Shown here: one piece after another, positions 11,068 to 39,489 of the stretch | Position numbering within the stretch: the stretch's first letter is position 1 | Layout of the letters: each line of letters begins with the position of its first letter | Assembly (NCBI GenBank): GCA_029879245.1 | Contig: JAOUQQ010000004.1 | Coordinates: forward strand, 1 to 61,736 | Direction of reading: 5' to 3' | From: Chromatiales bacterium | GTDB lineage: Bacteria; Pseudomonadota; Gammaproteobacteria; Thiohalomonadales; Thiohalomonadaceae | Length of the DNA stretch: 61,736 nucleotides | Notes under the pieces: generated by a model | Told to the model about the DNA's origin: nothing | Database searches by the model: none | Seen by the model: only the letters and a program-made list of their open reading frames with translations | Position numbers and translations under genes: made by a program

Positions 11068-11382
11068 TTACTGGCTGTTAGAGACCATGTACTCAACAGC
11101 GGCATCAACGTCTGCGTCGGCGAGGTCGGCACGACCACCCTTGGCAGGCATGAAGCCGGCGTCACCCTTAAAACCCTCTCTGGCGTGCTGCTTCAGCATA
11201 TCCATGCCCTTGGCGATGCGCGCTGCCCAGGCGGCCTTGTCGCCAAGTTTGGGCGCACCGGCGGCACCGGTAGCGTGACAGGCGAAACAGGCGCTGTCAT
11301 AGGTGGCCTTGCCATCTGCCATGGCCTGACCGGAAATTGCGAAGCTGGCTGCAATGGCAGCGGCGATAATGCTCTTCTTCAT
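11068..11382 (-). CDS. Cytochrome c5 family protein, monoheme
   Basis: A 104-residue periplasmic monoheme cytochrome. The signal peptide ends at about QAMA-DG. The heme site CFACHATGAAGAP and the Met ligand in GFMPAKGG are typical of the c5/c-555 family, which contributes to high-potential electron transfer to oxidases. It is first in a two-gene unit with c4. It is divergent from engB, with 233 bases between them that should hold both promoters. Confidence 0.92.
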   Translation of the reverse strand: MKKSIIAAAIAASFAISGQAMADGKATYDSACFACHATGAAGAPKLGDKAAWAARIAKGMDMLKQHAREGFKGDAGFMPAKGGRADLADADVDAAVEYMVSNSQ

Positions 11383-15360: not shown

Positions 15361-15434
15361 GCAGGCAGGGTGACAACATACGCTATCTCTGCCGTCGAAG
15401 TAACAGCTCCTTGAGAGCAATGAAGGGGGAGTCA

Positions 15435-16169
15435 ATGATAAATCAAATTAGACTATTAACCGCGCTTTCGCTCGGGTTATTCGTTCTTGGCGGTAGTGCT
15501 GTAGCCGGTGTGGTGGGTTCGGCGCACGACCTGACCACGATAAACGCCAATACCAATCAGGTGTGTGTCTTCTGTCACACCCCCCACGGTTCGGACTCTA
15601 CGGTGACAGCAGCACCGTTGTGGAATAAAGCACTGCCTACCGATACCTATACCGAGTACAGCAGCTCCACCATGGATGGCACCGCCAGCCTGACCAATAG
15701 CGTCTCGCTCGCCTGTCTCTCCTGTCACGATGGTGCCAACGCGGTGGATACCGTTATCAACGCCCCGACCTCGGTTACCAAGACCTACAACTACACTGCG
15801 GGGGGGGCTGTCATCGGTGGTGTTGCAGGTACCAATATGGCTACTACCAACCCGGTACCGGCAGTGGCGGGTGATGCGGCCTCACTGCAGAACGACCACC
15901 CGGTCAGTACACCGTATGGCGGCGGCGGTGCAGCTTTTGGGGCTAACGTAGCAGCTGGCGCCACCACTGACCCTGCTTTTACCGCAGTAGTAGGTTCTGG
16001 GGGGGCGACGGGTACGAGTAAGGTAGGTGTGTTGCCGCTCTACAACAAAGGTGATGTGGCCTTCGTTGAGTGTGCCTCCTGTCACGACCCACACGATAAC
16101 ACCAATGTGCCCTTCCTGCGTGTCAGTAGTGCCTCAAGCGCCATATGCACAACCTGTCACGTTAAATAA
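15435..16169 (+). CDS. Tetraheme cytochrome c, secreted (doubled-CXXCH / OmcE-like plan)
   Basis: A 244-residue protein with a signal peptide (MINQIRLLTALSLGLFVLGG..AVA) and four heme sites: CVFCH, CLSCH, CASCH and CTTCH. The N-terminal module reads VVGSAHDL.., CVFCHTPH, PLWN, YTEY, CLSCHDG and LQNDHPVS. The same string of motifs recurs in the 11-heme protein at 24637 and the pentaheme protein at 38458. The spacing and size resemble secreted tetraheme cytochromes of the type that polymerise in Geobacter (OmcE), but polymer formation is inference. I chose the ATG at 15435, with GGGGGAG just upstream, over an ATG 15 bases earlier. An intrinsic terminator follows at 16190-16223, so it may be made in excess over the genes behind it. 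Confidence 0.85.
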   Translation: MINQIRLLTALSLGLFVLGGSAVAGVVGSAHDLTTINANTNQVCVFCHTPHGSDSTVTAAPLWNKALPTDTYTEYSSSTMDGTASLTNSVSLACLSCHDGANAVDTVINAPTSVTKTYNYTAGGAVIGGVAGTNMATTNPVPAVAGDAASLQNDHPVSTPYGGGGAAFGANVAAGATTDPAFTAVVGSGGATGTSKVGVLPLYNKGDVAFVECASCHDPHDNTNVPFLRVSSASSAICTTCHVK

Positions 16170-16282: not shown

Positions 16283-17260
16283 GTGGTCCGTATCTCTATT
16301 CTCACATTACTGTTCGCCCTTGGTCTCTCCTGTGCAATAGCAGACGATACTAGCTTATCCGATAACTCGACCTTTGCCGTGGTAAATGGGGAGTCGATAA
16401 GTGCAGAGAGATATCTAATAGAGCTTAGCCGTGGCATGCGTCAACGCTTCTACCACGGCAATATCCCCGCCGAGCAGCTTGCACAATTTAGACAGGAGAT
16501 AGCCGATCGCCTGATCGACGAAACGCTCCTGCTGCAGGAGGCTGGGCGCAGGGGGGTTGAGGCGGATCATAAGGAGGTAGAGCAGCAGCTAGAGCAGTAT
16601 GAAAAGCGATATGCGGGTAGTGAACAGTGGCAGTCACGGCGCGGGACACTGATGCCGCAGTTGCGTGAAGAGCTTGAAGGTAAGAGCAGACTTTCACGCA
16701 TCAGGGAACATTTGAAAGAGACAGGTCCCATTAGCAGAAAGGCTGCCATGCAATACTATCGGGCCAATCCCGATAAATTCACCTCACCAGAGAGACGAAA
16801 GATCTCGCTCATCCTGCTTAAGGTTGACCCCTCCTCGCCAGCAAGCTCGTGGGATAACGCCCGTAGTGAGGGGGCCGCACTGGTGGCGAGGATCAAGGGT
16901 GGTGAGTCGTTTGCGGAACTGGCAAAGCTCCACTCCGCTGATGGTGCCTCGGCGAGCAAAGGGGGGGACATGGGATTTCTGCATAAGGGGATGCTGGCGG
17001 AGAGTGTTGAGTCAGCCATTGAGCAGTTAAAGGAGGGGGAGACTTCAGCGCCCATCACCACGCTGCAGGGTATTGTCGTTGTCAGACTGGAGAAGCGTCT
17101 TGGTGCACAGCTGAACAGTTTTGACACGGTTGAAGAGCGCGCCGTCGCACTAGTGAAAAGGGAGAGGGCGGAACAGCAGTATCTGATGGCAATGGGTGAA
17201 CTCAGAAAAGGTGCATCGTTAAAGGTAAACAATGGGTTGATCGAACAGAGACAGCCTTGA
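16283..17260 (+). CDS. Periplasmic parvulin-type peptidyl-prolyl isomerase (SurA/PpiC-like)
   Basis: A 325-residue chaperone/isomerase with a signal peptide (ends near SCAIA-DD), a helical SurA-type N-terminal region (about 25-165) containing FAVVNGESIS and ADRLIDETLLLQEA, and one parvulin domain (about 170-270) with ISLILLKVD, SFAELAKLHS and GGDMGFLHKG. SurA-like proteins keep outer-membrane proteins soluble in the periplasm and assist barrel assembly. The start is GTG at 16283 with GAGG six bases upstream. The gene directly precedes a beta-barrel gene, so it probably serves that barrel; isomerases also accompany some porin-cytochrome conduit operons. Only one parvulin domain is seen, against two in E. 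coli SurA. Confidence 0.87.
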   Translation: MVRISILTLLFALGLSCAIADDTSLSDNSTFAVVNGESISAERYLIELSRGMRQRFYHGNIPAEQLAQFRQEIADRLIDETLLLQEAGRRGVEADHKEVEQQLEQYEKRYAGSEQWQSRRGTLMPQLREELEGKSRLSRIREHLKETGPISRKAAMQYYRANPDKFTSPERRKISLILLKVDPSSPASSWDNARSEGAALVARIKGGESFAELAKLHSADGASASKGGDMGFLHKGMLAESVESAIEQLKEGETSAPITTLQGIVVVRLEKRLGAQLNSFDTVEERAVALVKRERAEQQYLMAMGELRKGASLKVNNGLIEQRQP

Positions 17261-17312
17261 CGCTCTGCTGCCAGTGCTAAATGAGCCACAACCGCTAGAG
17301 TGGAAAACGGTA

Positions 17313-19058
17313 ATGAAACTGGGGGCAAAAGAGATCATATTCTGTGGCGTTGCCGTACTGGCAGCCCCCGGATATGCATCAGCAGAACTGCTCTCGACGA
17401 GTGACTGGTGGGGTAGCATAGGCCTGGCCTATCAAAACTATACCGATGAGGTGCAGGCGAGTGAGATAAAGAGCCAGTTTATGGCGGATGTAAACGGGAA
17501 ATATTACATATGGCAGCCCTGGTTCATTAGCGGAAAGATGCGTGTGATAACATCAGCCGACACTACTAGTAACTCGGGGGGGGCAGAACGTAAGAATACA
17601 TCACTGGGTGGTGAGTTGTCGGCTACCGTGTTGCCATTAAGCAAGTTCCCACTGGCCATGGGATACAGTAAATCAGAAAATGTGATCGCAATAGATAATG
17701 GGCCAGCATCAGGGGTATCAGGTGGTGGGCTGTTACAGGTTGGACAAACGATATCTGCAACAAACTACTATCTAATACAGCAATACCTGGAAAATCGTTA
17801 CCGAATCTCACTCGGTTATGATGTGAGTGAAAATGAGAACAGTATTACAGGAAGGTATATCAGTAGAAAAAAACGCTTTGAGGCAGTAAGGCGGGATCCT
17901 GGAAGTAATCTTAATGTTACCGTTCAGCATCAGGAAGAAGAGCGTGAGATGCAGAACGAATCCAGAGACAACAGGTTGATGTTGTTAACACATGATTACC
18001 AGCCGACTGAGAGGATTACGGTGGCAACGAGTGGAAGTAAGATTGATCAACTGGATATGATTGATCTGAATGGAGATGGTATTCCTGACGAATACCATAA
18101 TGCTATCGACCAGGTGGTGAGTACGCTGACATGGCGTAGTGAAGACATGCGAACACACGTTAATGCAAATCTGAGATATACCGGTATTTATACAAACAGG
18201 CTGGCCGTAGATTACATAGATGAGAGTACAACTGTTGGGATAGGTGTAAGGCGACGTATCAACGACAATATTAACGTGATGGGATCAGCCAGCCATGCAG
18301 AGGTATTTCGAAACGGAGTCTCTGGTTATAACAATAGTTATGATGTAAGTGCGCAATATAGATCGGACACGATCATGTTGGGAGAGTATGGCTACGTGAT
18401 TGGCGCTACAACGGGGGGATCCGTACACCAGACCGAGGCATCAGAAGATAGTCGTACAACAGTCGGTGTAGATCATATCATTTCACGGAACTGGATAGTT
18501 GGCAGGAAAGGTCAGGTTAGATTTAGTGCAGACCAGGCGCTTACAAGAGAGAGTAATGCAACGTATGATGAGCGTGGATTTATCAAAAATGGCTTACGTA
18601 TTGGCTATTCCAGAACAGATAAAGATGGAACCGTCTATGCTCAGACAAACCTGGCAGATAGTCGCGCAGTCAGCGGGGAGACCGAAGAGACGCAACAGGC
18701 AAGTATACAGCTTAGTCGCATGCATAAGCTTGGCATGCGTACAAGTATTAATGGGAATTTATCCCATCAAATAAATAGGTTCACAAACACTCAGCAAAAA
18801 ATTGAAAGCAGGAATAGTAGCGCTACGATTAGTTATATGCATACAGTGAATTATACGTTCCAGACATTAAATCTGAGTTCAAATCTAGTGTATAACAAAT
18901 TTGAGTCTAACATGGCAGAGAGCAAAGATTCATATTCATGGGATAACGTACTAAAACACAATATCGGGCAGTTATATAGCAGCATAACCGTGCGCACGCA
19001 GAATGTGGATGACAGGCGTTCAAATTTAATATTAATTAACGTGACACGTAGATTTTAA
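17313..19058 (+). CDS. Outer-membrane beta-barrel protein, candidate porin of an electron conduit
   Basis: A protein of 581 residues from the ATG at 17313, which gives a clean signal peptide (MKLGAKEIIFCGVAVLAAPGY..). The mature part has no cysteine and no heme motif. It has a repeated pattern of alternating polar and hydrophobic 9-11-residue strands and ends in VTRRF, with the C-terminal Phe expected of BAM substrates. It does not have the N-terminal CXXC of the MtrB/PioB family, so I place it only as a porin-like barrel. Its surroundings (isomerase before it, three c7-type cytochromes and NHL proteins after it) suggest the barrel of an outer-membrane electron conduit. The DNA from here to about 24.6 kb is distinctly AT-rich with many ATA and AGA codons. 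Confidence 0.75.
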   Translation: MKLGAKEIIFCGVAVLAAPGYASAELLSTSDWWGSIGLAYQNYTDEVQASEIKSQFMADVNGKYYIWQPWFISGKMRVITSADTTSNSGGAERKNTSLGGELSATVLPLSKFPLAMGYSKSENVIAIDNGPASGVSGGGLLQVGQTISATNYYLIQQYLENRYRISLGYDVSENENSITGRYISRKKRFEAVRRDPGSNLNVTVQHQEEEREMQNESRDNRLMLLTHDYQPTERITVATSGSKIDQLDMIDLNGDGIPDEYHNAIDQVVSTLTWRSEDMRTHVNANLRYTGIYTNRLAVDYIDESTTVGIGVRRRINDNINVMGSASHAEVFRNGVSGYNNSYDVSAQYRSDTIMLGEYGYVIGATTGGSVHQTEASEDSRTTVGVDHIISRNWIVGRKGQVRFSADQALTRESNATYDERGFIKNGLRIGYSRTDKDGTVYAQTNLADSRAVSGETEETQQASIQLSRMHKLGMRTSINGNLSHQINRFTNTQQKIESRNSSATISYMHTVNYTFQTLNLSSNLVYNKFESNMAESKDSYSWDNVLKHNIGQLYSSITVRTQNVDDRRSNLILINVTRRF

Positions 19059-19091
19059 TATAAAACATTTTGATATAGACGGGAGTATACG

Positions 19092-19493
19092 ATGAACAGG
19101 TTAAGCATAAGAAATATAAAGCTAGTTAGCCTAATGACTGTTGCCTTGTTAATCGGAATATTTAGTACATCAGGAAGTGCAGAGTATGGTGATGTGGTGA
19201 TCAATAACTATTCCGATGCTGAGGGTATGCGGCCGGTGATATTTCCTCACTGGTTTCATCGAATACGCTATCGTTGCAAAACATGCCATGCCGATCTGGG
19301 GTTTAAGTTAAAGTCTGGTGGTAATGATATTACGATGGCAAAGATCATTGATGGGCAATATTGTGGGGGATGTCACAATGGTGAAATTGCATGGGCGGTA
19401 GAGAATTGTGATATTTGCCACTCAGGGATCCCGGGAACGCCAACACAGGTACATGGAGATACATCAAAGCCTGCAATCAATAAAAAGAGATAG
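19092..19493 (+). CDS. Triheme c7-type periplasmic cytochrome
   Basis: A 133-residue protein with a signal peptide (to about SGSA-EY), preceded by GGGAG. Three heme sites are present (CKTCH, CGGCH and CDICH). The histidines in FPHWFHRIRYRCKTCH are typical sixth ligands of c7/c3-type cytochromes, which use bis-His coordination at low potential. The motif order F.H..H..Y.C..CH, MAKI..G.YCGGCH.G and C.ICHS matches the c(7)-type triheme domain. Such carriers ferry electrons across the periplasm. It is the first of three triheme proteins here and the shortest, with no N-terminal extension. It is 33 bases downstream of the barrel gene. Confidence 0.88.
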   Translation: MNRLSIRNIKLVSLMTVALLIGIFSTSGSAEYGDVVINNYSDAEGMRPVIFPHWFHRIRYRCKTCHADLGFKLKSGGNDITMAKIIDGQYCGGCHNGEIAWAVENCDICHSGIPGTPTQVHGDTSKPAINKKR

Positions 19494-19506
19494 ATAGGAG
19501 GCAAGC

Positions 19507-20139
19507 GTGAAGAAATCATACACAATATTGCTTCTAACTATGCTGATGGGAATTAATTCCTTTGTAGTTAAGGCTGAAACCTCAAATGAGGCCAGTAACA
19601 AGGGTGTGTCTAATGTTAATAGTTTTAATCGGCTGCTGAAAAAAGAATCCAAAACCAATCCGCCGCCGATGGAAGATGGGATACACGATGCTGATAATCC
19701 TGGAACAGCATTGTTACAGGCACCTGCCACTGCCTTTGAAACATTGGATAAAAGTAAGCATGGTAATCACATAAACTGGGTCTCTTCCCTGGATGCAGCA
19801 AAAATCGCTCCGCGATGGGATCGTAGCGATCCTACAATACAGCCGATTGTATTTGACCTTAATATCATACGTGAAGTGAAAGGCTCCATGCCTAATGTGA
19901 TCTATCCGCACAAGGCGCATACCGAGTGGCTCGACTGTTCGAATTGTCATCCCGATATATTCATTCCGCAAAAGGGAGCGAACCAGATAAGTATGGCATC
20001 AATTATGTTGGGAGAAAAATGTGGTGTTTGTCACGGCACCGTGGCTTTTCCTGTGACCACTTCAACATGTAGCCTTTGTCACACACAGTCGAAGGGAAAT
20101 GTGCAACTTCCACGTAGTCAGGCGAGTAACTCACAATGA
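19507..20139 (+). CDS. Triheme c7-type cytochrome with N-terminal extension (paralogue A)
   Basis: A 210-residue secreted cytochrome starting at GTG 19507, five bases after AGGAGG. An extension of about 110 residues includes MEDGIHDADNPGTALLQ and INWVSSLD. The triheme domain follows: HKAHTEWLDCSNCH, LGEKCGVCHG.VAFP and CSLCH. It is a clear paralogue of the protein at 22157, sharing the GIHD..NP..LLQ motif, the WV.S motif and the heme domain. Its stop overlaps the start of the helical protein at 20136 by 4 bases. The extension may dock to a partner that differs between the two paralogues; that is inference. Confidence 0.87.
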   Translation: MKKSYTILLLTMLMGINSFVVKAETSNEASNKGVSNVNSFNRLLKKESKTNPPPMEDGIHDADNPGTALLQAPATAFETLDKSKHGNHINWVSSLDAAKIAPRWDRSDPTIQPIVFDLNIIREVKGSMPNVIYPHKAHTEWLDCSNCHPDIFIPQKGANQISMASIMLGEKCGVCHGTVAFPVTTSTCSLCHTQSKGNVQLPRSQASNSQ

Positions 20140-20966
20140 GGAATCTGGTACTTTTAGTTATTACGGTGTTCGTAACGAATTTGGCGATTGCTGGCTATGA
20201 AATGCAGTTACCGATCAAACTGGATTATGCCGAAGGGGTTTTGATGCGGTCGTCGACAGCTGAGCGGATTCGTACAAGAGGAAGCGATGAGGCGAAAGCG
20301 ATGTTGGAAAAGGCGCGTAACACGTATAAGGAGGCACGTATTGCTCAGCAAAGTGGAAAATTCGCGCTTGCTAATACAAAGGCAGATGAGTCACTACGGC
20401 TGGTAAATGCGGCAGTACTCCTGGTGCCCAATAAATTTGATGAAGAGAGGGCGGCAAAAAGACGTTATGCGGAATTATTGCATCAGGTGGAGACATATCT
20501 TCAATGGGACCACGAGCACAGTGTTATAGATGCGGACACACAAAATGAGTTAGACAAAACGGTAATAGAAATGGAGGAGGCGGCGAAATATGCGTCAAGT
20601 TCCGATTATAAAAAAGCAAATGAATTCTTAAATATGGCGCTGGCTATTGTGATTAGTGCAAGAAACAAATCGCTTAAAGAGCGTACTTTTGTTTACGACC
20701 TTAACTTTGAGACACCTATTGATGAATATAATTATGAAGAGACACGTAATGAAGATTATCAGAGGCTAGTGCCGGTTGCTATTACACAGCGCGACCCTCC
20801 GGCAGGTATCCAGAGTTTAATGCAGAGATTCGTAGATAAGGCATTAATAAAAAGACATGATGCTGAGGCACTCTTTAAGGATAAATCTTATGAACAGGCC
20901 GTTAGCAAAATGCAGGAGTCGACAACGGACTTGCTTAAGGCATTAAAGTTGGCTGGGGTTCAGTAG
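20136..20966 (+). CDS. Secreted helical repeat protein, unknown family (paralogue A)
   Basis: A 276-residue protein with a signal peptide (MRNLVLLVITVFVTNLAIA) and no cysteine. It is almost entirely helical, with TPR-like helix pairs such as AKAMLEKARNTYKEAR and KANEFLNMALAIVISA. Near residue 188 it has LNFETPIDEYNYEETRNEDY, which matches LHFNTPEEEYHYELDRNDTY in the next gene. I do not recognise a named family. It lies between two triheme cytochrome paralogues with a 4-base overlap on its left side. A periplasmic scaffold for the cytochromes or the barrel would fit, but function is unknown. Confidence 0.72.
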   Translation: MRNLVLLVITVFVTNLAIAGYEMQLPIKLDYAEGVLMRSSTAERIRTRGSDEAKAMLEKARNTYKEARIAQQSGKFALANTKADESLRLVNAAVLLVPNKFDEERAAKRRYAELLHQVETYLQWDHEHSVIDADTQNELDKTVIEMEEAAKYASSSDYKKANEFLNMALAIVISARNKSLKERTFVYDLNFETPIDEYNYEETRNEDYQRLVPVAITQRDPPAGIQSLMQRFVDKALIKRHDAEALFKDKSYEQAVSKMQESTTDLLKALKLAGVQ

Positions 20967-20978
20967 GGGGAGGATGAT

Positions 20979-22148
20979 ATGAGATATCATCTGAGGAGTA
21001 TTTATTTCCTGATGTTGGCGGCGTTTGCTGTGTGGCAGTTGCCCACGGCATCTGCGGTGAAAAACTTTGATCGGCCTTTGACGCCAGCTAGCGTCGCACA
21101 AGCATTACAGTTTGCGCATAAGTTAATCAATGACTCAACATTAGCGCGTACTATTGAAAAAGATAAATTCGCCCCAGCAATGGCGTATCTAAATGAGGCA
21201 AGAAGACTCCATGAGGACGCACTTGATCATCTCAGAGAAAATAATTTAATAGTTGCTATGGAGCGTCGCGATGAGGCTATTCGACTTGCCTTTGAAGCGG
21301 GTCATTTGACGCAGATGGCTGGGCAGCAGAAAGACAAACCAACAAATGATTTTGATCACAAAATGAGAAGTATCAATGCTCTGCTAAATGCCCATGCGAC
21401 ACTGGCGGAGAAACAGGGGCTGGCTGGAGATAATTTAAAACTTCGAGAGCAGATTAAGGATAATGTGCGTAGTGCCACTGCCATGCGGGAGTCGGGGGAT
21501 TATGTAACTGGTCTTAATATACTTAGCAGTGTCTATGACGAAGTAAAAAGAGCTGTTAGTAAGATTCGAGGTGGGGATGAAGTTGAGTTAACTGTGCAGT
21601 CAGCAGATAGTCATGAATCACTGGTTGGTAAATATGAGACGACACTACATAGTGTAAATGCACTGTTCTCAGCTCAGCAGCGTATTGCTAAAGAAAAAGG
21701 TGACAAGAAGTCGGCTGAGGGTCTAAAGCGTACGGTAACTGGCTTACTCGAGTCCGCTGAGAAAAATGCCCTGGGCAACAAATACGAACAGGCGGTGACC
21801 TATCTAAATCAGGCATATGAGACTGTCGCAGGGTCGATTGAGCAGATGCGTGGAGGTGAAACGCTGGTACGTACACTTCACTTCAATACGCCGGAAGAGG
21901 AGTACCACTACGAGCTGGATCGTAATGACACCTACAAAATGCTGATCCGGTCTTTGATTGAAGATAAGAAGACGATGCAGGTTACAGAGAGGGTGCAGGG
22001 ATATCTTGACCAGGCAGACGAGTTGCGTGCACTAGCTGAGCAGCAGGCTGGTAATGGTGATTTTAGTGACGCCATTAAGTCACTAGAGAAATCAACAAAA
22101 AATCTCATTTTTGCGATGCGTAATGCAGGATTCTTTATACCAGGGTGA
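20979..22148 (+). CDS. Secreted helical repeat protein, unknown family (paralogue B)
   Basis: A 389-residue paralogue of the preceding protein, with a strong ribosome-binding site (GGGGGAGG) and a signal peptide (ends near TASA-VK). It contains three similar helical units: AMAYLNEARRLHEDAL, ATAMRESGDYVTGLNIL and AVTYLNQAYETVAGS. The shared motif L.F.TP..EY.YE..RN..Y lies at about residue 307. It ends in ALAEQQAGNGDFSDAIKSLEKSTKNL, resembling the end of paralogue A (EQAVSKMQESTTDLLKALKLAG). It has no cysteine and no heme site. It is longer than A by an extra N-terminal helical unit. Function is unknown. Confidence 0.72.
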   Translation: MRYHLRSIYFLMLAAFAVWQLPTASAVKNFDRPLTPASVAQALQFAHKLINDSTLARTIEKDKFAPAMAYLNEARRLHEDALDHLRENNLIVAMERRDEAIRLAFEAGHLTQMAGQQKDKPTNDFDHKMRSINALLNAHATLAEKQGLAGDNLKLREQIKDNVRSATAMRESGDYVTGLNILSSVYDEVKRAVSKIRGGDEVELTVQSADSHESLVGKYETTLHSVNALFSAQQRIAKEKGDKKSAEGLKRTVTGLLESAEKNALGNKYEQAVTYLNQAYETVAGSIEQMRGGETLVRTLHFNTPEEEYHYELDRNDTYKMLIRSLIEDKKTMQVTERVQGYLDQADELRALAEQQAGNGDFSDAIKSLEKSTKNLIFAMRNAGFFIPG

Positions 22149-22156
22149 TAGTGGCG

Positions 22157-22672
22157 ATGATGCGTATATTTGTAACAATTGCGTTTTCTTTTCTCTACGG
22201 TAGTGCGGTTGCCGCAGAGTTGATCGCAATACCCTTAAAAGCAGATGGATTGCATGATACTAGTAATCCTGCGTATGAGCTGTTGCAGGAGCCAGCAGAG
22301 GCGCTCTCACTATTGCCGGTTGACCAAAATGGGAAAACGGATTGGGTCAGAAGTATCCAAAATGGTTATATACAACCTCGTACAGGGCTCACGGGTAAGG
22401 AGGCCATGAAAGAACTTGAGCTAGAGATTGTAATGAAAAATACTGCCTCAATGCCTCACGTGATGTTTAGTCACAGTGTACATACGCAGTGGTTAACATG
22501 TAGCAGCTGTCATTCACGTATCTTTCTACCACAAATTGGTGCAAATTTTATTACTGAAAAGCGTATTAAGGCTGGAGAGTATTGCGGTGTCTGTCATGGT
22601 AAGGTCGCTTTTTCTACAGAACAGTGTGAACGCTGTCATACGGTTACTAATGAGATAACAGGCCTGAGGTAG
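22157..22672 (+). CDS. Triheme c7-type cytochrome with N-terminal extension (paralogue B)
   Basis: A 171-residue secreted cytochrome (a GTG at 22145 would add four residues; the ATG at 22157 is about nine bases from AGGGTG). A signal peptide is followed by GLHDTSNPAYELLQEP and DWVRSIQN, then the heme domain FSHSVHTQWLTCSSCH, AGEYCGVCHGKVAF and CERCH. It shares this plan with the protein at 19507. Together with the two helical paralogues the order is c7-A, helical-A, helical-B, c7-B, all on one strand. This points to duplication of a two-gene unit with later rearrangement. It is 1 base from the next gene. Confidence 0.87.
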   Translation: MMRIFVTIAFSFLYGSAVAAELIAIPLKADGLHDTSNPAYELLQEPAEALSLLPVDQNGKTDWVRSIQNGYIQPRTGLTGKEAMKELELEIVMKNTASMPHVMFSHSVHTQWLTCSSCHSRIFLPQIGANFITEKRIKAGEYCGVCHGKVAFSTEQCERCHTVTNEITGLR

Positions 22673-22673
22673 T

Positions 22674-23603
22674 ATGCGAATTGTACTGCTCTTTCTGTTT
22701 ACAATATCGCACGTATGCCATGCAGGGATTAAGCTGCCAGGACAAATCGTACATGAGGAGTCTATAACTCGTATAGCTATACAACGTACTATTCCTCAGC
22801 GATTAGCCGGTGTAGATGAATTTATTACCATCACATCGCCGGGTGTGTTCGCTGTCCGTGGTGAATTACTCTATCTTTACGATACTGCACGTCAGTTACT
22901 CTATCGTTACAATCGAAGCACGCATGCTGTTAGTGCCATAGAAGGTGTCGTCCAGCATCTCAAGGGGCCGCCTTCTGCCCTCCATGTTGGCGCAAATGGC
23001 GATATATACATCGCGGATCCATTTGGTCATCGGGTACTGTTGTTTAACTCTGCCGGCGACCTCATTCGAGATTTTTCCGATTCGCTCAATCTTAATAATC
23101 CCGTGGCGATCGTTACAGGCATTGAAGGGAATGTTTATATTGCAGACGGGCTGTTTTCTCATATAGTTGTCTTTAGCCCATCTGGTGTCGCCTTGCGCGC
23201 GCTCTCACTGCGTGATGAAAACATTAAGCTTCACCAGATTGCCGATATGGCATCTGGGCCACAAGGCTATTACATTTTGGACAAGATTCATAAATATATT
23301 GTTGTCATCTCTGCTGATGGTTCACTTGTGTCAGAGGTGCCACGTCTTGAGGTGACCGACCCCACATCAATTACCATTGATAGTTATGGTGATATCTATA
23401 TTAGTGATGAGGCCGATGACACGATAAAGGTCTATGGGCAGAATCGTCTTAAATACATTTATGGTGGTACGGGTTCACAACACGGTTACTTTCGTATGAT
23501 ACGTGGCATCCAGGCTGAGTTGAATTCACTCTATGTTGCGGACAGTGCTAATAATCGTATTCAGATCTTTCGTATACAGCCTTCTTATGAGGGGATAGAG
23601 TGA
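22674..23603 (+). CDS. Secreted NHL-repeat beta-propeller protein
   Basis: A 309-residue protein with a short signal peptide (ends near CHA-GI; this CH is not a heme site). It has about six NHL blades, visible from repeats such as NGDIYIADPFGHRVLLFNS, EGNVYIADGLFSHIVVFS and YGDIYISDEADDTIKVYG. NHL propellers are usually binding or docking platforms. It is coupled to a second NHL gene by a 1-base overlap and follows the c7 gene by one base. A structural role in a cytochrome complex at the outer membrane is inferred from context. Confidence 0.85.
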   Translation: MRIVLLFLFTISHVCHAGIKLPGQIVHEESITRIAIQRTIPQRLAGVDEFITITSPGVFAVRGELLYLYDTARQLLYRYNRSTHAVSAIEGVVQHLKGPPSALHVGANGDIYIADPFGHRVLLFNSAGDLIRDFSDSLNLNNPVAIVTGIEGNVYIADGLFSHIVVFSPSGVALRALSLRDENIKLHQIADMASGPQGYYILDKIHKYIVVISADGSLVSEVPRLEVTDPTSITIDSYGDIYISDEADDTIKVYGQNRLKYIYGGTGSQHGYFRMIRGIQAELNSLYVADSANNRIQIFRIQPSYEGIE

Positions 23604-24634
23604 TGCGCTCAGGCGTGCTCCTGCTAGTACTCCTTATGACTGGATGTAGCAGTACGGTCGTTCGCCAATTTACCTATCACAACGATAATTCAAACATTAT
23701 CTGGCCGTCATCTTCCGAGATGCCACGCTACAGACTGGTAGGTGAGCTTTATGGAGAGAGTAACTTCCCATCCGAAGATGAGGGGCCGTCACTACTACAG
23801 ATTATAACGGGTTTCTTCACCGGTGATGGTCGCGCAAATGTATTACAACGGCCTCAAAGTGGCTACACAGACAACGATGGCAGGGTCTATGTTACTGATC
23901 TGAGCCGACAGGCTGTACTGGTGTTTGATATACCAGGCAATAAATTACTTCAATTTACCATGATTAGTAATGAGCTCCCCTTTATCAGTCCTGTTGCCAT
24001 TACTGAAGCACCGGGGGGTGATCTCTATGTCTCGGATTCAGAACATAGGGTTGTAGCGAGGTTGGACAGGAGTGGCGAGCCGGTTTCTCTGATCGGAAAA
24101 GGTATTCTCAATCGTCCTACCGGTATCGCTTATAATGCCGAAAAGCGTCATCTCTTCGTTGCTGATACCCATAGCCATGATATTAAGGTTTTTGATGAGC
24201 GTGGGACTTTTATCGAAAGTATTGGACAACGTGGGGAAGAGGTGGGTCAGTTTAACTTTCCTACCCACCTCAGTTTTCGTCACGGCAGACTCTATGTTAC
24301 CGATGCCATGAATGCCCGAATTCAGATAATGGACTCAACGGGTCACTTTATCTCTACATTCGGAAAACGCGGCCTGTTTATCGGTAACATTCCTCACCCC
24401 AAAGGGATTGGGGTAGATGGTGATGGGAATATCTACGTCTCTGAATCCTACTACGATACAGTTCTGGTATATAATGCTGAAGGAGAGCTACTGTTACCCA
24501 TTGCGGGGGGCGTGTCGGATCTCAAACCGTTCTATCTCCCAGCAGGGATCTGGAGTGATAAAAACAATCGCATCTATATTGCAGATATGTTTAACGGTCG
24601 AGTCGTCGTATTACAATTTCTGGGGGGTGAGTAG
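23603..24634 (+). CDS. NHL-repeat beta-propeller lipoprotein
   Basis: A 343-residue protein with a lipoprotein signal (VLLLVLLMTGCSS, lipid on the Cys at about 15) and NHL blades such as GGDLYVSDSEHRVVARLD, KRHLFVADTHSHDIKVFD, HGRLYVTDAMNARIQIMD and DGNIYVSESYYDTVLVYN. It is probably attached to the outer membrane. It is paralogous in plan to the lipoprotein at 37394 (shared fingerprint RVYVTDLSRQAVLVFDIPG here and VYVSDTIHRGVVMFDIPG there). The start is ATG at 23603, which overlaps the previous stop; GTG at 23600 is an alternative. Confidence 0.87.
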   Translation: MRSGVLLLVLLMTGCSSTVVRQFTYHNDNSNIIWPSSSEMPRYRLVGELYGESNFPSEDEGPSLLQIITGFFTGDGRANVLQRPQSGYTDNDGRVYVTDLSRQAVLVFDIPGNKLLQFTMISNELPFISPVAITEAPGGDLYVSDSEHRVVARLDRSGEPVSLIGKGILNRPTGIAYNAEKRHLFVADTHSHDIKVFDERGTFIESIGQRGEEVGQFNFPTHLSFRHGRLYVTDAMNARIQIMDSTGHFISTFGKRGLFIGNIPHPKGIGVDGDGNIYVSESYYDTVLVYNAEGELLLPIAGGVSDLKPFYLPAGIWSDKNNRIYIADMFNGRVVVLQFLGGE

Positions 24635-24636
24635 CC

Positions 24637-27093
24637 ATGATCGATGTGCGAATAGCCATGCTTTTACCGCTACTGGTGCTCCTGTCTTCTATTAAGGTCT
24701 ATGCGGGACAGGTCGCAGATGTGGCCTCCAGCAAGCACAATCTCTCCTCTGGACCGGTGGTTACCACTGGCGATACCGACCGTATTTGTGTCTTTTGTCA
24801 TACACCACACGCGTCCACCATGGATGGAGCCAATCCAACACCACTATGGAATCGTGAACTCTCAGCTCAAACATATACCCTGTATGATGACAACACCACA
24901 GATGCTCTGAAGGGGATGTCGATTGACGCTACGCTGGGACAACCCGGTGGCAGCTCCAAGCTCTGCCTCTCCTGTCATGATGGCACTATCGCAATTGGTA
25001 AGGTCAACATCTTTAATGGCGCCGCAGCTACATTCACCATGTCGGGAACGGATCCAGACGGGACGATGCCCTCTGGCAGCGGTGTGACGACGGGGTTTAC
25101 CAGTGACCTGGGGGTAAGTCTGCAAAATGATCACCCCATCTCATTTACCTACGACACCGCACTTGCCACTAGCGATGGTGAACTCTATGACCCGGCAACG
25201 AGTACGCATATCGCCAATCGAATCACCAGTAACACGAGACCCCTGGTGCCTCTGGATAGTGATAAGGTACAGTGTACAACCTGCCATGACCCACATGTGG
25301 TTGATGATACTGATGCAGCGGTTAGCGTTAAATTTATTCGTGAAGGATTAAATCGATTTCAGACAGCGTCCGGCCCGGCTAGTGATACCGCATTTAACAG
25401 TAACAATGACCTCCTCTGTCTGGCCTGTCATAAAAAGGTGGGGTGGTCCTCGTCGGCACATGCCATGAGCAGTGTCGCTAATGAGACCTATACCGACCCC
25501 GCGGCGGCGCAGCGTGACTTTCCCAGCGGTATCGCGGTGTGGCAGGCGGCCTGCATGAACTGTCACGACACCCATACCGTACAGGGCGCAAGAAAGTTAC
25601 TGCGTGAGGCCACAGACAGTACAGCTAGTCCCAAGGTTGGAGGTAATCCGGCACAGGAAGAGACCTGTTATCAGTGTCACGATGTGAACGGAGACGTCTC
25701 TAATGTGTTGACTGGCGGTGCGGGCAATCTGACACCGGACATCAAGAGTGACTTTACACTGACCCTCTATCACATGCCCATAACCACTGCCGAGCAGCAG
25801 GCGGGTAGTGAGCAGCATGCCATCACTGACAAGGACTTCACGGAGGTGCCGGGCCAACTGGGCAAAACATCGCTGGTCAATCGACATGCGGAGTGTACCG
25901 ACTGCCACAACCCCCACCGGGTTAAGAAAAATCGCCTGTTTAACGACGCGACCGGCACACCCGATTTGGCAGGGACTCACGACCATTTTGCGACAGGTGG
26001 CCACACCAATATTGCATCTGGCGTACTCTCTGGCGCATCCGGTGTTGAACCAACCTACACCGTAGATACGTGGGGCCAGCCGGATGCCAATATTACTTTT
26101 ACAGATATAGGTAATCAGAAGAAGGGGCCTGCTGGTGCTGGCACGGCCAAAACACAGGGTTATGTTACGCGTGAGTATCAGATCTGCCTCAAGTGCCATT
26201 CAAACTACGCCTGGCCGAATGGCACACCACCATCGATAGGCCCCTCAATAGGTCAGAATGGGGTGAACCAATACACGAATCAGGCAATGGAGTTTCATGC
26301 CCCGGTTGCCGATCGTGGAGAGGGCACTGCGACACATAGTTCGTGGCATCCGGTGATGGAGGCGACGGGGAGAACGGCGGCTGTGAGGGGGATGAACGCC
26401 ACTTCTACTAATCAGCCTTTCCTCTCTCCGTGGAATGATGCTACAGGTACTAATATCGGCAATCAGACAATGTACTGCTCGGACTGCCATGGGTCTGCTG
26501 TAACATCGGTTACCTCTGTCGTGCCGGATGGGGGTGAAGATGGCAAGCCATGGGGACCGCACGGTTCAACCAATCCGTTCCTGCTAAAGGGTAGCTGGGA
26601 TACAAACACCGGACTGACTAACGACGCACTCTGTTTTCGCTGTCACGAGTGGGGGCAGTATGCTGATCCTGCCGCTACCGTCTTTAAGAACAGTGGCTTC
26701 AGCTGCAATGGATGTACTGGCACCGCTGGTGGCGGTGGCGGTGGTGGCGGTGGTGGTGGGGGTGGTGGCGGCGGCGGCTGCAACATGAATGCGCAATATG
26801 AGCCAAACCTCCATCTCGGGCACGCCAATATTTTGGGTAAACTGCGTTGTACCTGGTGCCATACCGCACTACCTCACGGCTGGAAGAATAAGGCGTTGCT
26901 GGTCAATATTAATGGTGACGGAGATTGCGGAGGGGCAGTGCCCTGCAATGTCGGCCCCTATTATCAAAATGCCTATCTGGGGGGCAATGCGGGTGGCGTC
27001 ACCTGGAAGACAAGTGGGCAATGGCTGCCCGCTGACTGTGGCAGCGTACAGCAGGGGGGGTATATGTCCCAGACCTGCAATAATCTGCCGTAA
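24637..27093 (+). CDS. Large secreted multiheme cytochrome c, 11 CXXCH sites, poly-Gly linker
   Basis: An 818-residue protein with a signal peptide (ends near KVYA-GQ). Eleven CXXCH sites are seen: CVFCH, CLSCH, CTTCH, CLACH, CMNCH, CYQCH, CTDCH, CLKCH, CSDCH, CFRCH and CTWCH. The N-terminal module (SSKHNLSSG, CVFCHTPH, PLWN, CLSCHDG, LQNDHPIS) is the same as in the tetraheme protein at 15435. Between sites 10 and 11 there is CNGCT (Cys690-Thr694), a CXXC without the ligand His, followed by 17 glycines (698-714) and Cys715. The tail adds four more cysteines. It is probably the extracellular or outer-surface partner of the conduit. A ResB/CcsA pair follows 8 bases later, which suggests dedicated maturation. 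Base composition returns to near the genome average here. Confidence 0.87.
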   Translation: MIDVRIAMLLPLLVLLSSIKVYAGQVADVASSKHNLSSGPVVTTGDTDRICVFCHTPHASTMDGANPTPLWNRELSAQTYTLYDDNTTDALKGMSIDATLGQPGGSSKLCLSCHDGTIAIGKVNIFNGAAATFTMSGTDPDGTMPSGSGVTTGFTSDLGVSLQNDHPISFTYDTALATSDGELYDPATSTHIANRITSNTRPLVPLDSDKVQCTTCHDPHVVDDTDAAVSVKFIREGLNRFQTASGPASDTAFNSNNDLLCLACHKKVGWSSSAHAMSSVANETYTDPAAAQRDFPSGIAVWQAACMNCHDTHTVQGARKLLREATDSTASPKVGGNPAQEETCYQCHDVNGDVSNVLTGGAGNLTPDIKSDFTLTLYHMPITTAEQQAGSEQHAITDKDFTEVPGQLGKTSLVNRHAECTDCHNPHRVKKNRLFNDATGTPDLAGTHDHFATGGHTNIASGVLSGASGVEPTYTVDTWGQPDANITFTDIGNQKKGPAGAGTAKTQGYVTREYQICLKCHSNYAWPNGTPPSIGPSIGQNGVNQYTNQAMEFHAPVADRGEGTATHSSWHPVMEATGRTAAVRGMNATSTNQPFLSPWNDATGTNIGNQTMYCSDCHGSAVTSVTSVVPDGGEDGKPWGPHGSTNPFLLKGSWDTNTGLTNDALCFRCHEWGQYADPAATVFKNSGFSCNGCTGTAGGGGGGGGGGGGGGGGGCNMNAQYEPNLHLGHANILGKLRCTWCHTALPHGWKNKALLVNINGDGDCGGAVPCNVGPYYQNAYLGGNAGGVTWKTSGQWLPADCGSVQQGGYMSQTCNNLP
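26728..26778 (+). repeat. Tandem GGN codons encoding 17 glycines
   Basis: Seventeen consecutive glycine codons, a mix of GGT, GGC and GGG, lie inside the 11-heme cytochrome gene. The frame is open on both sides and the protein regains a heme site downstream, so it is a real linker and not a frame error. Such a tract could vary in length by replication slippage in units of three bases. Confidence 0.8.
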
Positions 27094-27101
27094 TCGATAG
27101 T

Positions 27102-28124
27102 ATGCAGAGTGCCGATCTGGTTAGTGCTGCGGTGTTTCCACGCCTGCTCGTCTGGTTGAGGACTCTGGCGTCGTTGCGACTAACACTTATTATCATTGTC
27201 GTGTTTGCGCTCTCTATCGGCATTTACTATTTCAGTGACAGACGTTACGAGTGGATCCTCGCTATGCCGCTTACCCTGCTGGCGATAAATCTTTCTGCTG
27301 CAATTGTCACCCACCCTACATTCCGCTATCGCACACCACTACTGCTCTTTCACCTCGCCCTGCTGATGCTTCTACTGCTGGTGGTGGCAGGTCGTTTGAG
27401 CTATCTCCGGGCCGAGGTGGAGGTGACTAGCGGTAGCCAATTTGCGGGCTCCTTTGATCGCAGCGAAAGTGGTCCACTGCATCAGCCAGGTTATCAACAA
27501 CTGCACTTTTTGCTTCACGACTTCACCATTCACTATGCCCCAGGTATTCAGCGTGAGGAGACAGAGGCACAGATAGAGTGGCGAGATGATAGTGGACGTC
27601 GAATGAGTACGACTATCGGTGATCATCACCCCCTGCGCCTGAACGGTTATCGCTTCTACACCACACCTAACAAGGGCTTCGCCGCCCTTTTTCTCTGGCA
27701 GCCCACCGCAACGGCGAGTGCACAACGTGGAACGGTCCACTTTCCTGCATATCCCGCCCATGAGTTTCGCCAGGCGCAACGCTGGGTAACGCCCGATCTG
27801 CGGCTTGAGCTGTGGGGGCAACTCGACTTTGATGAAATACTCCTCGACCCGGAGCATCCATCACAGTTTCGCTTGCCACAACAACAGCGTCTGACTATTC
27901 GCACAAATGATAAACGCTACTCCCTGCAGCCTGGGGAGAGTATCTCCCTTCCGCAGGGGACGCTGCGATACGAAGGTTTGCGCAAGTGGATGGGATTCAA
28001 GGTCTTTTATGACTGGACGCTGCCCTGGCTGCTGGCCTGTGGTGTGGTGGCTGTCCTGTCGCTGGGGTGGCACTATTGGCGTATCTTTTCTGCAGACCCA
28101 TGGTTGCGAGAGGGCAAAGAGTAG
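27102..28124 (+). CDS. Short ResB-family cytochrome c maturation protein (module A)
   Basis: A 340-residue ResB-like protein: two or three N-terminal helices (about residues 25-45, 50-70 and 78-98), a periplasmic domain (about 100-300) with LRLNGYRFYTTPNKGFAALFLW and RYEGLRKWMGFKVFYDW, and a C-terminal helix (about 305-325). It is much shorter than the ResB copies at 8271 and 30898. It pairs with the following CcsA-like protein, which starts right after its stop. Its position directly behind the 11-heme gene suggests a maturation factor for that cytochrome. Specialised CcsBA versions for odd heme motifs are known in Wolinella; a similar role here is inference. Confidence 0.82.
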   Translation: MQSADLVSAAVFPRLLVWLRTLASLRLTLIIIVVFALSIGIYYFSDRRYEWILAMPLTLLAINLSAAIVTHPTFRYRTPLLLFHLALLMLLLLVVAGRLSYLRAEVEVTSGSQFAGSFDRSESGPLHQPGYQQLHFLLHDFTIHYAPGIQREETEAQIEWRDDSGRRMSTTIGDHHPLRLNGYRFYTTPNKGFAALFLWQPTATASAQRGTVHFPAYPAHEFRQAQRWVTPDLRLELWGQLDFDEILLDPEHPSQFRLPQQQRLTIRTNDKRYSLQPGESISLPQGTLRYEGLRKWMGFKVFYDWTLPWLLACGVVAVLSLGWHYWRIFSADPWLREGKE

Positions 28125-28937
28125 GTGGAGCGAGAACTTTTACTATTGTGGGTGGCAATAACTCTGTACGTTCTATGCGGAGTTATTGCTATCTTCTCGG
28201 TGATATTGGGTAAACGTCAGGAGAGAACCGTGTTGGCGCTGCTCGTTACGAGTTTGCTGTTACACGGGGGGGCGATCCTGCTGCGCTGGCAGCGCCTCGA
28301 CCACGGCCCCTATCTCACCATGTTCGAGATCCTCTCCAGCAATGTCTGGAGTTTGCTCTTTATCTACAGTCTGGCCTACTGGAGATATCGTCCCATTAGA
28401 CCGACGGCGGCAATCATCTTACCAGTTATGTTCATTATGATGGGCTGGTTGATGCTTTCCAGCCCTGAGGAGGGCCATCTACCGCCTACCTACGATACCA
28501 CGTGGCTTGTTATTCATATTCTGTTCGGCAAGGTCTTTCTCGGAGCGGTATTGATCGCGGTGGGTATGGCGGTGGTGATTTTATTGCGCCACTATCATAT
28601 TGGCGTGCAGCGGCTACAGCGCCTGCCGGACAACACACGTCTTGATGATCTTGCTTACCGTTTTATGGCGCTGGGAATCATCTTTGATACCCTGATGTTG
28701 ATCGCCGGGGCGATCTGGGCGCAGGATGCCTGGGGACGTTACTGGGCCTGGGACAAACTGGAGACATGGTCTTTCATCACCTGGCTTACCCTCGCCTTTG
28801 CCCTGCATTTGCGTGTCACCTATCGACCAAATCCACTGCGCGGGGCGGTGCTGATTGTGATGGTCTTTATCCTCGCCTTTCTCACCTTCTTTGGTGTGCC
28901 GTTTGTGACGATGGTGCCGCATCAGGGGGCGATCTAA
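28125..28937 (+). CDS. CcsA-type WWD-domain cytochrome c maturation protein (module A)
   Basis: A 270-residue polytopic protein with about eight helices. The WWD motif reads WGRYWAWDKLETW, against WGGYWSWDPKETW in the two other copies of this window: the Pro-Lys after Asp is Lys-Leu here. Flanking histidines are seen in LVIHILFGKVF and MVPHQGAI. It starts with GTG at 28125, immediately after the stop of the ResB-like gene. Compared with the 338- and 388-residue copies it lacks the long N-terminal part. I read it as the CcsA half of a divergent, probably specialised, System II pair. Confidence 0.87.
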   Translation: MERELLLLWVAITLYVLCGVIAIFSVILGKRQERTVLALLVTSLLLHGGAILLRWQRLDHGPYLTMFEILSSNVWSLLFIYSLAYWRYRPIRPTAAIILPVMFIMMGWLMLSSPEEGHLPPTYDTTWLVIHILFGKVFLGAVLIAVGMAVVILLRHYHIGVQRLQRLPDNTRLDDLAYRFMALGIIFDTLMLIAGAIWAQDAWGRYWAWDKLETWSFITWLTLAFALHLRVTYRPNPLRGAVLIVMVFILAFLTFFGVPFVTMVPHQGAI

Positions 28938-30229
28938 TGGTGTCTCGTCACGACACTACGGCTAACCGCTATAGCAGACGCTGGCTCTGGCTGGCACTAA
29001 CCGCCATCGGCCTCTCCGCCCTCTTTGCGATGCTGCTGGTGGTGGCCCGTACCCCACTATTGCAACAGCTCTTTGGTGGTGCCGATCTGTTCCACACCGT
29101 GCTGGTACTGCATGTTAATTTTTCGGTGCTGGTGTGGCTGCTCGCCTTTGGTGCGCTGCTCTGGTCTCTGGAGAAAGGGGGAGAGCTGCCGTTACTCGAC
29201 TCGCTGGCCTTTTTGCTGGCGGTTGTCGGGGCGATATTGATCAGCCTCTCGCCGCTACTCACCCCACCACCGCAACCGGTGATGAGCAACTATATTCCTA
29301 TTCTGCATAGCCCCGCCTTTCTCAGCGGGCTGTCTATCTTTGGCGTCGGAGTGGGGCTCTATGCCATGCGTCGCCTCTATTTCTCACGAGATGGTAGTGG
29401 TGCCATGGCGGCGCTACTGCTTCTCGCTGCACTGCTGCTATTTGTGGTAACTGCCCTGCGCCTGCCTGCACCGCTCGATACAGCGATGAGGTTTGAATCG
29501 CTCTTCTGGGGTGGAGGTCACCTGCTGCAGTTTGTCTACCTGATGTTGTTGCTCACCTGCTGGCAGGGGCTGCTACACCATGTGGGAGTAAAATTGGTGT
29601 TACACCGGGGGTTGATGCCGTTGGTCGTGGTGATCATGACGGCTGCGCTGCTAACAGGTCTGCTCGTTGAGCCCGGAAGTGATCTCTCACGCAGTGCCTA
29701 TACCTGGCTAATGGCGCTGGGTTCGCCGCTGCTCCTTGCTTTGCCGCTATGGCGCCTGTGGTGGCATCGCAGGGCGCTCCCGATCGAGATTGTACTGTCG
29801 GTAGCACTGTTGCTTGTTGGCCTGCTCCTGGGGGCGCTGATCCGCAGTGATAACGTCACCGTGACGGCCCACTATCACGCCACCAATGCGGCGATCACAA
29901 TCGCCTTTATGGGGCTGACCTATCGGCTCTTGCCGCAACTGGGTATAGGGGAGGTAAGGGCGGTGTGGGCCGCGCGACAGTTGTTACTCTATTTTAGCGG
30001 GATGGTGATCTACATTGGCGGGATGGCCCTGTCGGGGTGGCTTGATGTGCCACGGAAGGTGGCGTTGCAGGCAGAGGGGGTACAGGCCCTCTCTCTCGGT
30101 CTGATGGGGTTGGGGGGGCTGGTGGCGATCAGCGCCACCACCCTCTTTGTCCTGCTGCTGATCCAGGCAGCCCGCAGGACATCACCGGTGATTCTGGTAA
30201 AGGGGGAAGGGCATGGCACCACGTCGTGA
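28937..30229 (+). CDS. 12-helix heme-copper oxidase subunit I-like protein lacking the CuB His pair
   Basis: A 430-residue membrane protein whose ATG overlaps the previous stop (TAATG). It has 12 predicted helices in the layout of oxidase subunit I. Histidines sit where heme-copper oxidases have them: His59 in helix II (low-spin heme), His195 in WGGGH of helix VI (a CuB ligand), and His312-Tyr-His314 in helix X (high-spin and low-spin heme ligands). Helix VII (MPLVVVIMTAALLTGLL) has no His-His pair, so two of three CuB ligands are missing. An HH at about 215 is only 20 residues after His195 and cannot replace it. I infer a diheme b-type membrane protein that is not an oxidase, perhaps a quinol- or heme-linked partner of the maturation or conduit system. 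The family assignment needs a profile search. Confidence 0.68.
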   Translation: MVSRHDTTANRYSRRWLWLALTAIGLSALFAMLLVVARTPLLQQLFGGADLFHTVLVLHVNFSVLVWLLAFGALLWSLEKGGELPLLDSLAFLLAVVGAILISLSPLLTPPPQPVMSNYIPILHSPAFLSGLSIFGVGVGLYAMRRLYFSRDGSGAMAALLLLAALLLFVVTALRLPAPLDTAMRFESLFWGGGHLLQFVYLMLLLTCWQGLLHHVGVKLVLHRGLMPLVVVIMTAALLTGLLVEPGSDLSRSAYTWLMALGSPLLLALPLWRLWWHRRALPIEIVLSVALLLVGLLLGALIRSDNVTVTAHYHATNAAITIAFMGLTYRLLPQLGIGEVRAVWAARQLLLYFSGMVIYIGGMALSGWLDVPRKVALQAEGVQALSLGLMGLGGLVAISATTLFVLLLIQAARRTSPVILVKGEGHGTTS

Positions 30230-30812
30230 TCGGCGCCTGCTGGCGCTGGCCCTGACCGTAGGTGCGGTCGGCATAATTGGTGGTGTGGTCACCCTGCTGC
30301 CGGCGGTACAGCCACAGCAGGTATCGCGGCAGCTTGCGCAACCTCTGGTGATTGCCGATGGGGGTAGTGCGCCACAGCAACATGCCCATGATGCACGTGG
30401 TGCTGAGGTTGAGATGCGTTTTCAGCAGGCGATTGCGATGCTGCACGCCAGAGAGTACGACTACGCGGTGAAGGCGCTGCACCGGGTACTGGAGCTCTCA
30501 CCGCGACTGGTCGAGGCGCACGTGAACATGGGGTATGCCCTGATCGGGCTCGGGGAGTACAAGGCGGCGCACGATTTCTTTTCCTCGGCCATTGCACTCC
30601 GCCCCGAGCAGGTGAACGCCTACTACGGACTGGCGGTTGCCCTTGAGGGGGTGGGTGACCTGGGGGGGGCGCTGGGGGCGATGCGAACCTTTATTCACCT
30701 TAGCCCCCAGGATGACCCCTTCATTCCCAGGGCGCGCGCGGCGCTGTGGGAGTGGCAGGATCGCCAGTCGAGTGAGAGCGGTGATGGCAAGAGTAGTTCG
30801 TCGGGCGAGTAG
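30213..30812 (+). CDS. Membrane-anchored TPR protein
   Basis: A 199-residue protein with an Arg-rich start, one membrane helix (about 8-30) and a periplasmic part with about three TPR units: AMLHAREYDYAVKALHRVLELSP, AHVNMGYALIGLGEYKAAHDFFSSAIALRP and AYYGLAVALEGVGDLGGALGA. It resembles the TPR parts of CcmI/NrfG, which hold apocytochromes during maturation. It overlaps the preceding gene by 17 bases and lies between two maturation pairs, so an apocytochrome chaperone is likely, by inference. Its C-terminus is a Ser-rich tail. Confidence 0.78.
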   Translation: MAPRRDRRLLALALTVGAVGIIGGVVTLLPAVQPQQVSRQLAQPLVIADGGSAPQQHAHDARGAEVEMRFQQAIAMLHAREYDYAVKALHRVLELSPRLVEAHVNMGYALIGLGEYKAAHDFFSSAIALRPEQVNAYYGLAVALEGVGDLGGALGAMRTFIHLSPQDDPFIPRARAALWEWQDRQSSESGDGKSSSSGE

Positions 30813-36055: not shown

Positions 36056-36081
36056 ATAATAAAGAGTGGTAAGGGGGAAAG

Positions 36082-37332: not shown

Positions 37333-37348
37333 TCCCACAAAAGAGAGA

Positions 37349-37365
37349 CCGCACCGATGGTGCGG
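37349..37365. terminator. Bidirectional intrinsic terminator between convergent propeller genes
   Basis: CCGCACC and GGTGCGG form a perfect 7-bp stem with a 3-base loop. The minus-strand side is followed by TCTCTCTTTT and the plus-strand side by CCTTCTGGTTT. It sits between the stops of the 36082 and 37394 genes. Confidence 0.7.
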
Positions 37366-37393
37366 CCTTCTGGTTTATCGAGAGACTCCTTTA

Positions 37394-39264: not shown

Positions 39265-39430
39265 CCGTGCAATCAATGGGGAGGCTCTCTCCATCACAAT
39301 GCAGGAAATTTCTACGGCAACCTCTACAATCAATCCCTGCTCAATTGAGGCCGTTCGCAGCGTCTCTCTTACGACGGTGAGCGCCTCACGCGCTATTGAG
39401 GTAACCTTACGCTTTAGACTCCATATAGTC

Positions 39431-39445
39431 TGGTATACTATACCA
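39431..39445. promoter_or_regulatory. 15-bp palindrome in a divergent promoter region
   Basis: TGGTATACTATACCA is a perfect palindrome with 7-base arms. It contains TATACT (39434-39439), which resembles a -10 element for the plus-strand gene at 39490. The site lies 45 bases before that start and about 165 bases from the opposite cytochrome start. An operator overlapping a promoter is the likely reading; the regulator is unknown. Confidence 0.4.
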
Positions 39446-39489
39446 ACATAAATAATAATGCCATTGAGTCACAACCGATTACTAACATT

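Follow-up and report, generated by a model that had tools for sequence, protein, structure and literature searches.

The cytochrome gene cluster described here is almost certainly a Uet (undecaheme electron transfer) system, comprising uetABCDEFGHIJ together with resB and ccsA, as indicated by its agreement with the published gene content and order, and two of its cytochromes belong by sequence to the OmcE family of multiheme cytochromes, namely UetA and, in its N-terminal part, UetJ. The Uet system, a presumed bacterial route for electrons from cathodes or iron across the outer membrane, already has a name and the locus is a further member of it; what is new is the link of its cytochromes to a nanowire family. 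The locus very likely functions as an outer-membrane electron conduit. It lies in the window, i.e. the whole stretch of 61,736 nucleotides of a Chromatiales bacterium that was analysed, and comprises the following genes:

15411-16169, forward strand: uetA, tetraheme c-type cytochrome of the OmcE family (4 CXXCH, 252 residues; likely start at the ATG at 15435)
16283-17260, forward strand: uetB, parvulin/SurA-like peptidyl-prolyl isomerase (PF00639, E 2.1e-17; PF13624, E 1.6e-11)
17274-19058, forward strand: uetC, outer-membrane beta-barrel, predicted to have 28 strands and to be plug-free (AlphaFold2 model)
19092-19493, forward strand: uetD, triheme c7 cytochrome, the best conserved part of the set (TIGR04257, E 1.2e-19)
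19507-20139, forward strand: uetE, triheme c7 cytochrome with an N-terminal extension common to UetG (TIGR04257, E 1.8e-16)
20136-20966, forward strand: uetF, first copy, exported all-helical protein (paralogue of uetF2, 27% identity)
20979-22148, forward strand: uetF2, second copy, exported helical-repeat protein with a conserved IPG at its end (model)
22145-22672, forward strand: uetG, triheme c7 cytochrome (TIGR04257, E 9.9e-18)
22674-23603, forward strand: uetH, NHL beta-propeller (PF01436, E 4.6e-11)
23600-24634, forward strand: uetI, NHL beta-propeller lipoprotein (PF01436, E 1.7e-24; lipobox LMTGC in the sequence)
24637-27093, forward strand: uetJ, undecaheme cytochrome, an OmcE-like tetraheme domain at the N-terminus plus 7 hemes (11 CXXCH, 818 residues)
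27102-28124, forward strand: resB-like gene for cytochrome c biogenesis (System II), same operon, kept behind uetJ in relatives
28125-28937, forward strand: ccsA-like gene for cytochrome c biogenesis (System II), same operon, kept behind resB in relatives

The gaps between the genes in 16283-24634 range from -4 to 33 bp, so that these genes look like a single operon, and the arrangement is not due to chance, dozens of genomes having the genes in this order. A sequence-only reading of this region had listed an isomerase, a barrel, three triheme c7 cytochromes, two helical proteins and two NHL propellers, all of which were confirmed, the isomerase by PF00639, the propellers by PF01436 and the cytochromes by TIGR04257, with UetD, UetE and UetG each above the TIGR04257 (nanowire_3heme) cut-off. 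The gene set is thus real; it had been cut short by one cytochrome gene at each end, namely uetA, which ends 113 bp upstream of the uetB start, and uetJ. The accompanying statement that no decaheme gene is adjacent does not hold, because UetJ, with its 11 CXXCH motifs, starts 2 bp downstream of the uetI end. Heme counts refer to CXXCH motifs in the proteins; a DNA-pattern search for heme motifs gave no match. The GC content of uetC-uetI is 0.42-0.47, vs 0.53-0.58 in the flanking genes; acquisition of this low-GC core from a distant donor was considered and set aside, as the proteins are close to those of a same-genus genome (JAPHSX01, isolate N3S-Bin_5), in which uetC-uetI has no comparable GC drop. 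Directly after ccsA, at 28766-30812, the window holds a COX1-like membrane protein and a TPR protein; homologues of this pair are found at 16-17 of the best 80 (of 492) Uet loci.

The same reading had considered the conduit to be of an unnamed type; its content and order are those of the published Uet system (PMC10734462, PMC5371394, PMC12575090). This system has been described for Ca. Tenderia electrophaga and the iron-oxidising Gallionella, with UetA as a tetraheme cytochrome, UetB as a peptidylprolyl isomerase, UetC as a porin, UetDEG as triheme cytochromes, UetHI as NHL proteins and UetJ as an undecaheme cytochrome (PMC10734462), and the cluster name uetABCDEFGHIJ is also used in Tenderiales (PMC12575090). 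In the window the expected gene types were all found in order: tetraheme, isomerase, porin, two triheme, helical/TPR, triheme, two NHL and undecaheme. The Ca. Tenderia electrophaga genes Tel_16515, Tel_16520 and Tel_16530 (triheme), 16525 (TPR) and 16545 (undecaheme) (PMC5371394) fit this order, and a cluster of the same order was seen in a biocathode metagenome-assembled genome (locus L106) compared with the window.

For the search of GTDB contigs UetD was used as the query because the barrel is too divergent (about 15-26% identity between the UetC of the window and its relatives); a scan with UetC alone gave no match. The UetD alignment retrieved 492 relatives, mostly from Beta- and Gammaproteobacteria plus Magnetococcales, the best 80 of which were annotated, and all counts per 80 loci refer to these; the annotated loci belong to the same groups and include one bin labelled Planctomycetota. 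Genes A, B, C, D, E, G, I and J all occur within 10 kb in 42 of the 80. Two layouts recur, one with a single long uetF and both NHL genes and the other with uetF, uetF2 and a second UetD-like gene, and the layout of the window is intermediate between them, having F and F2 and both NHL genes without the second D. Cultured carriers are Aromatoleum, Ramlibacter, Ideonella, Herbaspirillum and Motiliproteus. In five Aromatoleum/Azoarcus loci (L087, L088, L101, L105, L129) the order is rearranged to C G D H I resB ccsA D E F2, and uetJ lies farther off. A triheme-only conduit, suggested by clusters that seemed to lack UetJ or UetA (Aromatoleum L087; L085 and L111 without UetJ), was rejected, since those genomes carry UetJ elsewhere, 12 of the 12 other genomes checked having one.

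A second group of genes, at 34940-41492, probably belongs to the Uet machinery as well, because many other species have homologues of most of them immediately before uetA. It includes:

38458-39333, reverse strand: second OmcE-family cytochrome, 5 hemes (7tfs_A, E 2.8e-17)
37394-38551, reverse strand: further NHL propeller lipoprotein (PF01436, E 2.3e-26), with homologues upstream of uetA elsewhere
39490-41492, forward strand: two multi-domain class I cytochromes c with 3 and 2 hemes (PF13442)

Homologues of the class I cytochromes c occur upstream of uetA in about 30 of the best 80 (of 492) loci. The island also holds two Reg_prop propellers.

UetA aligns over its full length (residues 13-252) with 7tfs_A (phmmer, E 6.4e-27), PDB entry 7TFS being the OmcE nanowire (PMC12954529), and the UetA family profile, searched against the whole PDB, matches only 7tfs_A (E 1e-39) and 9yuq_N (E 2e-40), the latter from a 16-chain entry. 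The distal histidines H39, H59, H163 and H228 of UetA are conserved in 100% of 60 homologues and aligned with those of OmcE, and the same four are invariant in 47 UetJ N-termini. Residues 18-224 of UetJ match 7tfs_A by profile (E 1.9e-34), and seven further hemes follow this domain; across 33 homologues UetJ has 48-54% identity with invariant heme sites, and every full-length homologue carries 11 CXXCH. Between hemes 10 and 11 UetJ has a run of about 17 glycines (encoded around 26710-26780), and some relatives bear Gly/Met-rich inserts there. No lipobox was found in the UetA and UetJ sequences. One of the OmcE hemes takes a histidine ligand from the next subunit (PMC9473688); exactly four spare histidines for four hemes are present in 43 of 57 UetA sequences, so that, if the fold is shared, none would be left to cap an unpolymerised subunit. 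OmcE homology by itself is no proof of UetA polymerisation, and the chance that UetA forms a filament is somewhat less than even; the physiological role of such cytochrome filaments is a matter of dispute (PMC11077965). No statement on the likeness of UetA to OmcE was found in the literature searched, whose scope excluded the primary Uet paper (Eddie 2022).

The barrel had been described as cysteine-free with a C-terminal Phe; UetC indeed ends in Phe and its sole cysteine is in the signal peptide. The AlphaFold2 model, built with 46 homologues, has a mean pLDDT of 92.1, with 28 transmembrane strands by our count and no plug domain, and this large, unplugged predicted barrel supports the earlier proposal of a porin-type conduit with several triheme cytochromes. 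VIA-align puts MtrB (6r2q_B) at the top of the structural matches (Z 16.2, 409 residues, rmsd 11 Å), with unrelated barrels within 1 Z, and Foldseek puts it third; other large barrels are tied with it. By sequence the barrel is distinct from MtrB/PioB: the profile check gave no match of UetC to PF11854 (MtrB_PioB) at E 1 and none in the genome at E 0.001, and the UetC profile matched no PDB sequence at E 10. As modelled, UetC is large enough for an MtrB-like sheath, and would at most be a putative member of that family.

These elements can be combined into a porin-cytochrome model, quite likely correct as a whole, in which UetA and UetJ form a relay into UetC, followed by UetD/E/G and cytochrome c5. 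Electrons would pass from an extracellular donor to UetA, as a filament or a single cytochrome, then to UetJ, through UetC to UetD/E/G, and on to cytochrome c5 and a terminal oxidase. UetC would act as the insulating sheath of a heme chain across the outer membrane; UetJ would be docked in or on it, with the OmcE-like end outward as a base for a UetA stack, whose subunits would each donate a histidine ligand to the neighbour, as in OmcE. On the periplasmic side UetD/E/G would gather electrons and hand them on to cytochrome c5 and the oxidase. UetB may fold the barrel, UetF and the NHL proteins, including the lipoprotein propeller UetI, may be scaffold, and resB/ccsA would attach heme. That UetJ, rather than the triheme proteins, occupies the barrel is put at even odds.

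The topology proposed earlier, a stack of the triheme proteins UetD, UetE and UetG forming a c7 chain within UetC, is the first alternative to be weighed; UetJ and UetA would then sit wholly outside. The c7 modules are known to form multi-domain heme rods, and searches with the UetD and UetE profiles hit the crystal structures 3ov0 and 3oue (UetD against the c7-rod cytochromes of the PDB: 3ov0, E 4e-43); moreover uetD directly follows uetC in 71 of the best 80 (of 492) loci, and no protein of the set is better conserved than UetD, with 50-65% identity across relatives, UetD and UetE being the slowest to evolve and UetC the fastest (mean distance 0.43 for UetD vs 2.20 for the barrel). Against it, a cytochrome c5-like domain is fused to the UetE N-terminus in 27 of 76 homologues (none of the 47 three-heme UetE has it), fusions which suggest that UetE is periplasmic and trades electrons with cytochrome c5. 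A candidate for this partner is encoded in the window:

11068-11382, reverse strand: free-standing protein resembling cytochrome c5, putative electron partner for UetE (40-59% identity to the UetE-fused domain in 27 relatives)

In addition, some genomes in which UetC was not detected (G052, G113) carry uetD-E-F2 modules, which implies that these modules do not require the barrel, and a mirror-tree test on 23 loci revealed no residual co-variation between UetC and UetD (partial r -0.003), vs 0.38 for UetI and 0.29 for UetJ; these links are weak, and the test points only faintly to UetI and UetJ as the partners of the barrel. A c7 chain within the barrel is rather unlikely. The stand-alone uetD-E-F2 modules, with no barrel or uetJ nearby, were seen at five loci (L044, L045, L046, L048, L049; uetD was not seen in L045), and most of their genomes have UetC elsewhere, none being detected in G052. 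At a further locus (L043, 4050-10731; genome G113) a gene for a 24-heme cytochrome adjoins the module. The UetF2 family is present in 42 of 369 genomes of the class; its model (pLDDT 86) is all helix, and no PDB match of the fold was obtained at E 0.001.

In a second alternative UetC serves chiefly as a pore through which a UetA/UetJ filament is assembled or secreted, and electrons follow the secreted wire itself. This would agree with the OmcE-family membership of both cytochromes, with the isomerase and propellers as assembly factors, and with the co-variation of UetC, which is greatest with the lipoprotein UetI and with UetJ; however, secretion needs no three periplasmic triheme cytochromes, yet the operon has them, and the secretins encoded in the genome, a possible T2SS/T4P export route, could export the cytochromes; this function appears improbable.

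As for direction, the porin-cytochrome relay likely works inward, as electron uptake, since RuBisCO is encoded in the genome and the homologous triheme genes Tel_16515/16520/16530 are among the most highly expressed in Ca. Tenderia electrophaga on the cathode (PMC5371394); the biology of Tenderia and Gallionella points the same way. There is only a slim chance that the same machine runs in reverse, with Fe(III), Mn(IV) or another cell as the electron acceptor. In favour of this, Uet is also found in Aromatoleum and Ramlibacter, which are not known as electroautotrophs; OmcE in Geobacter serves metal-oxide reduction (PMC12307469) and an undecaheme cytochrome was reported in manganese-reducing Dechloromonas (PMC13264449), but RuBisCO and the cathode expression argue against it, as do the presence of Uet in iron-oxidising Gallionella (PMC10734462) and of UetJ in Leptothrix relatives.

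A more tentative and rather doubtful extension is that Uet is a nanowire and pore machine, in which an OmcE-type UetA filament would be based on the N-terminal domain of UetJ, whose other seven hemes would lead into UetC. If true, hundreds of proteobacterial species would share a junction, encoded in their genes, that joins a cytochrome nanowire to an outer-membrane conduit. According to a 2025 review, direct biochemical evidence tying conduits to nanowire formation is lacking (PMC12307469). The OmcE-family membership of UetA, the putative outermost cytochrome, links wire and membrane pore within one operon, and an operon encoding an OmcE-family subunit, a larger cytochrome opening with the same domain and a porin makes the wire/conduit junction directly testable.

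Among known systems, MtrCAB, PioAB and MtoAB likewise combine a large outer-membrane barrel with multiheme cytochromes, and MtrB is the top structural match of UetC, tied with other barrels; unlike them, UetC is outside PF11854 and Uet has no MtrA/DmsE-family decaheme, UetJ scoring 39.6 bits against a TIGR03508 cut-off of 192.2. OetABI of syntrophic sulfate reducers (PMC10553843) resembles Uet as a porin conduit encoded with putative nanowire cytochromes (OmcX, OmcS-like), but these are of other cytochrome families, the distinction being drawn by description; identity with OetABI, the first idea, was dropped, since the main text of that article mentions neither an isomerase nor an NHL protein. 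The OmcE nanowire of Geobacter sulfurreducens (7TFS) shares with UetA a full-length alignment, four hemes and four distal histidines, and likewise with the N-terminal domain of UetJ, whereas UetA, whose polymer is putative, is in one operon with a porin, an isomerase and triheme cytochromes. The GSU1996-type c7 rods of Geobacter (3ov0, 3oue) are built from the triheme c7 module of UetD/E/G, which in contrast are individual proteins of one module each, and two of which have an N-terminal extension in common. The Uet system of Ca. Tenderia and Gallionella agrees with the window in all ten gene types and in their order, down to an 11-heme UetJ and a 4-heme UetA; in Ca. Tenderia a single TPR gene lies among the triheme genes, whereas the window has two helical uetF paralogues.
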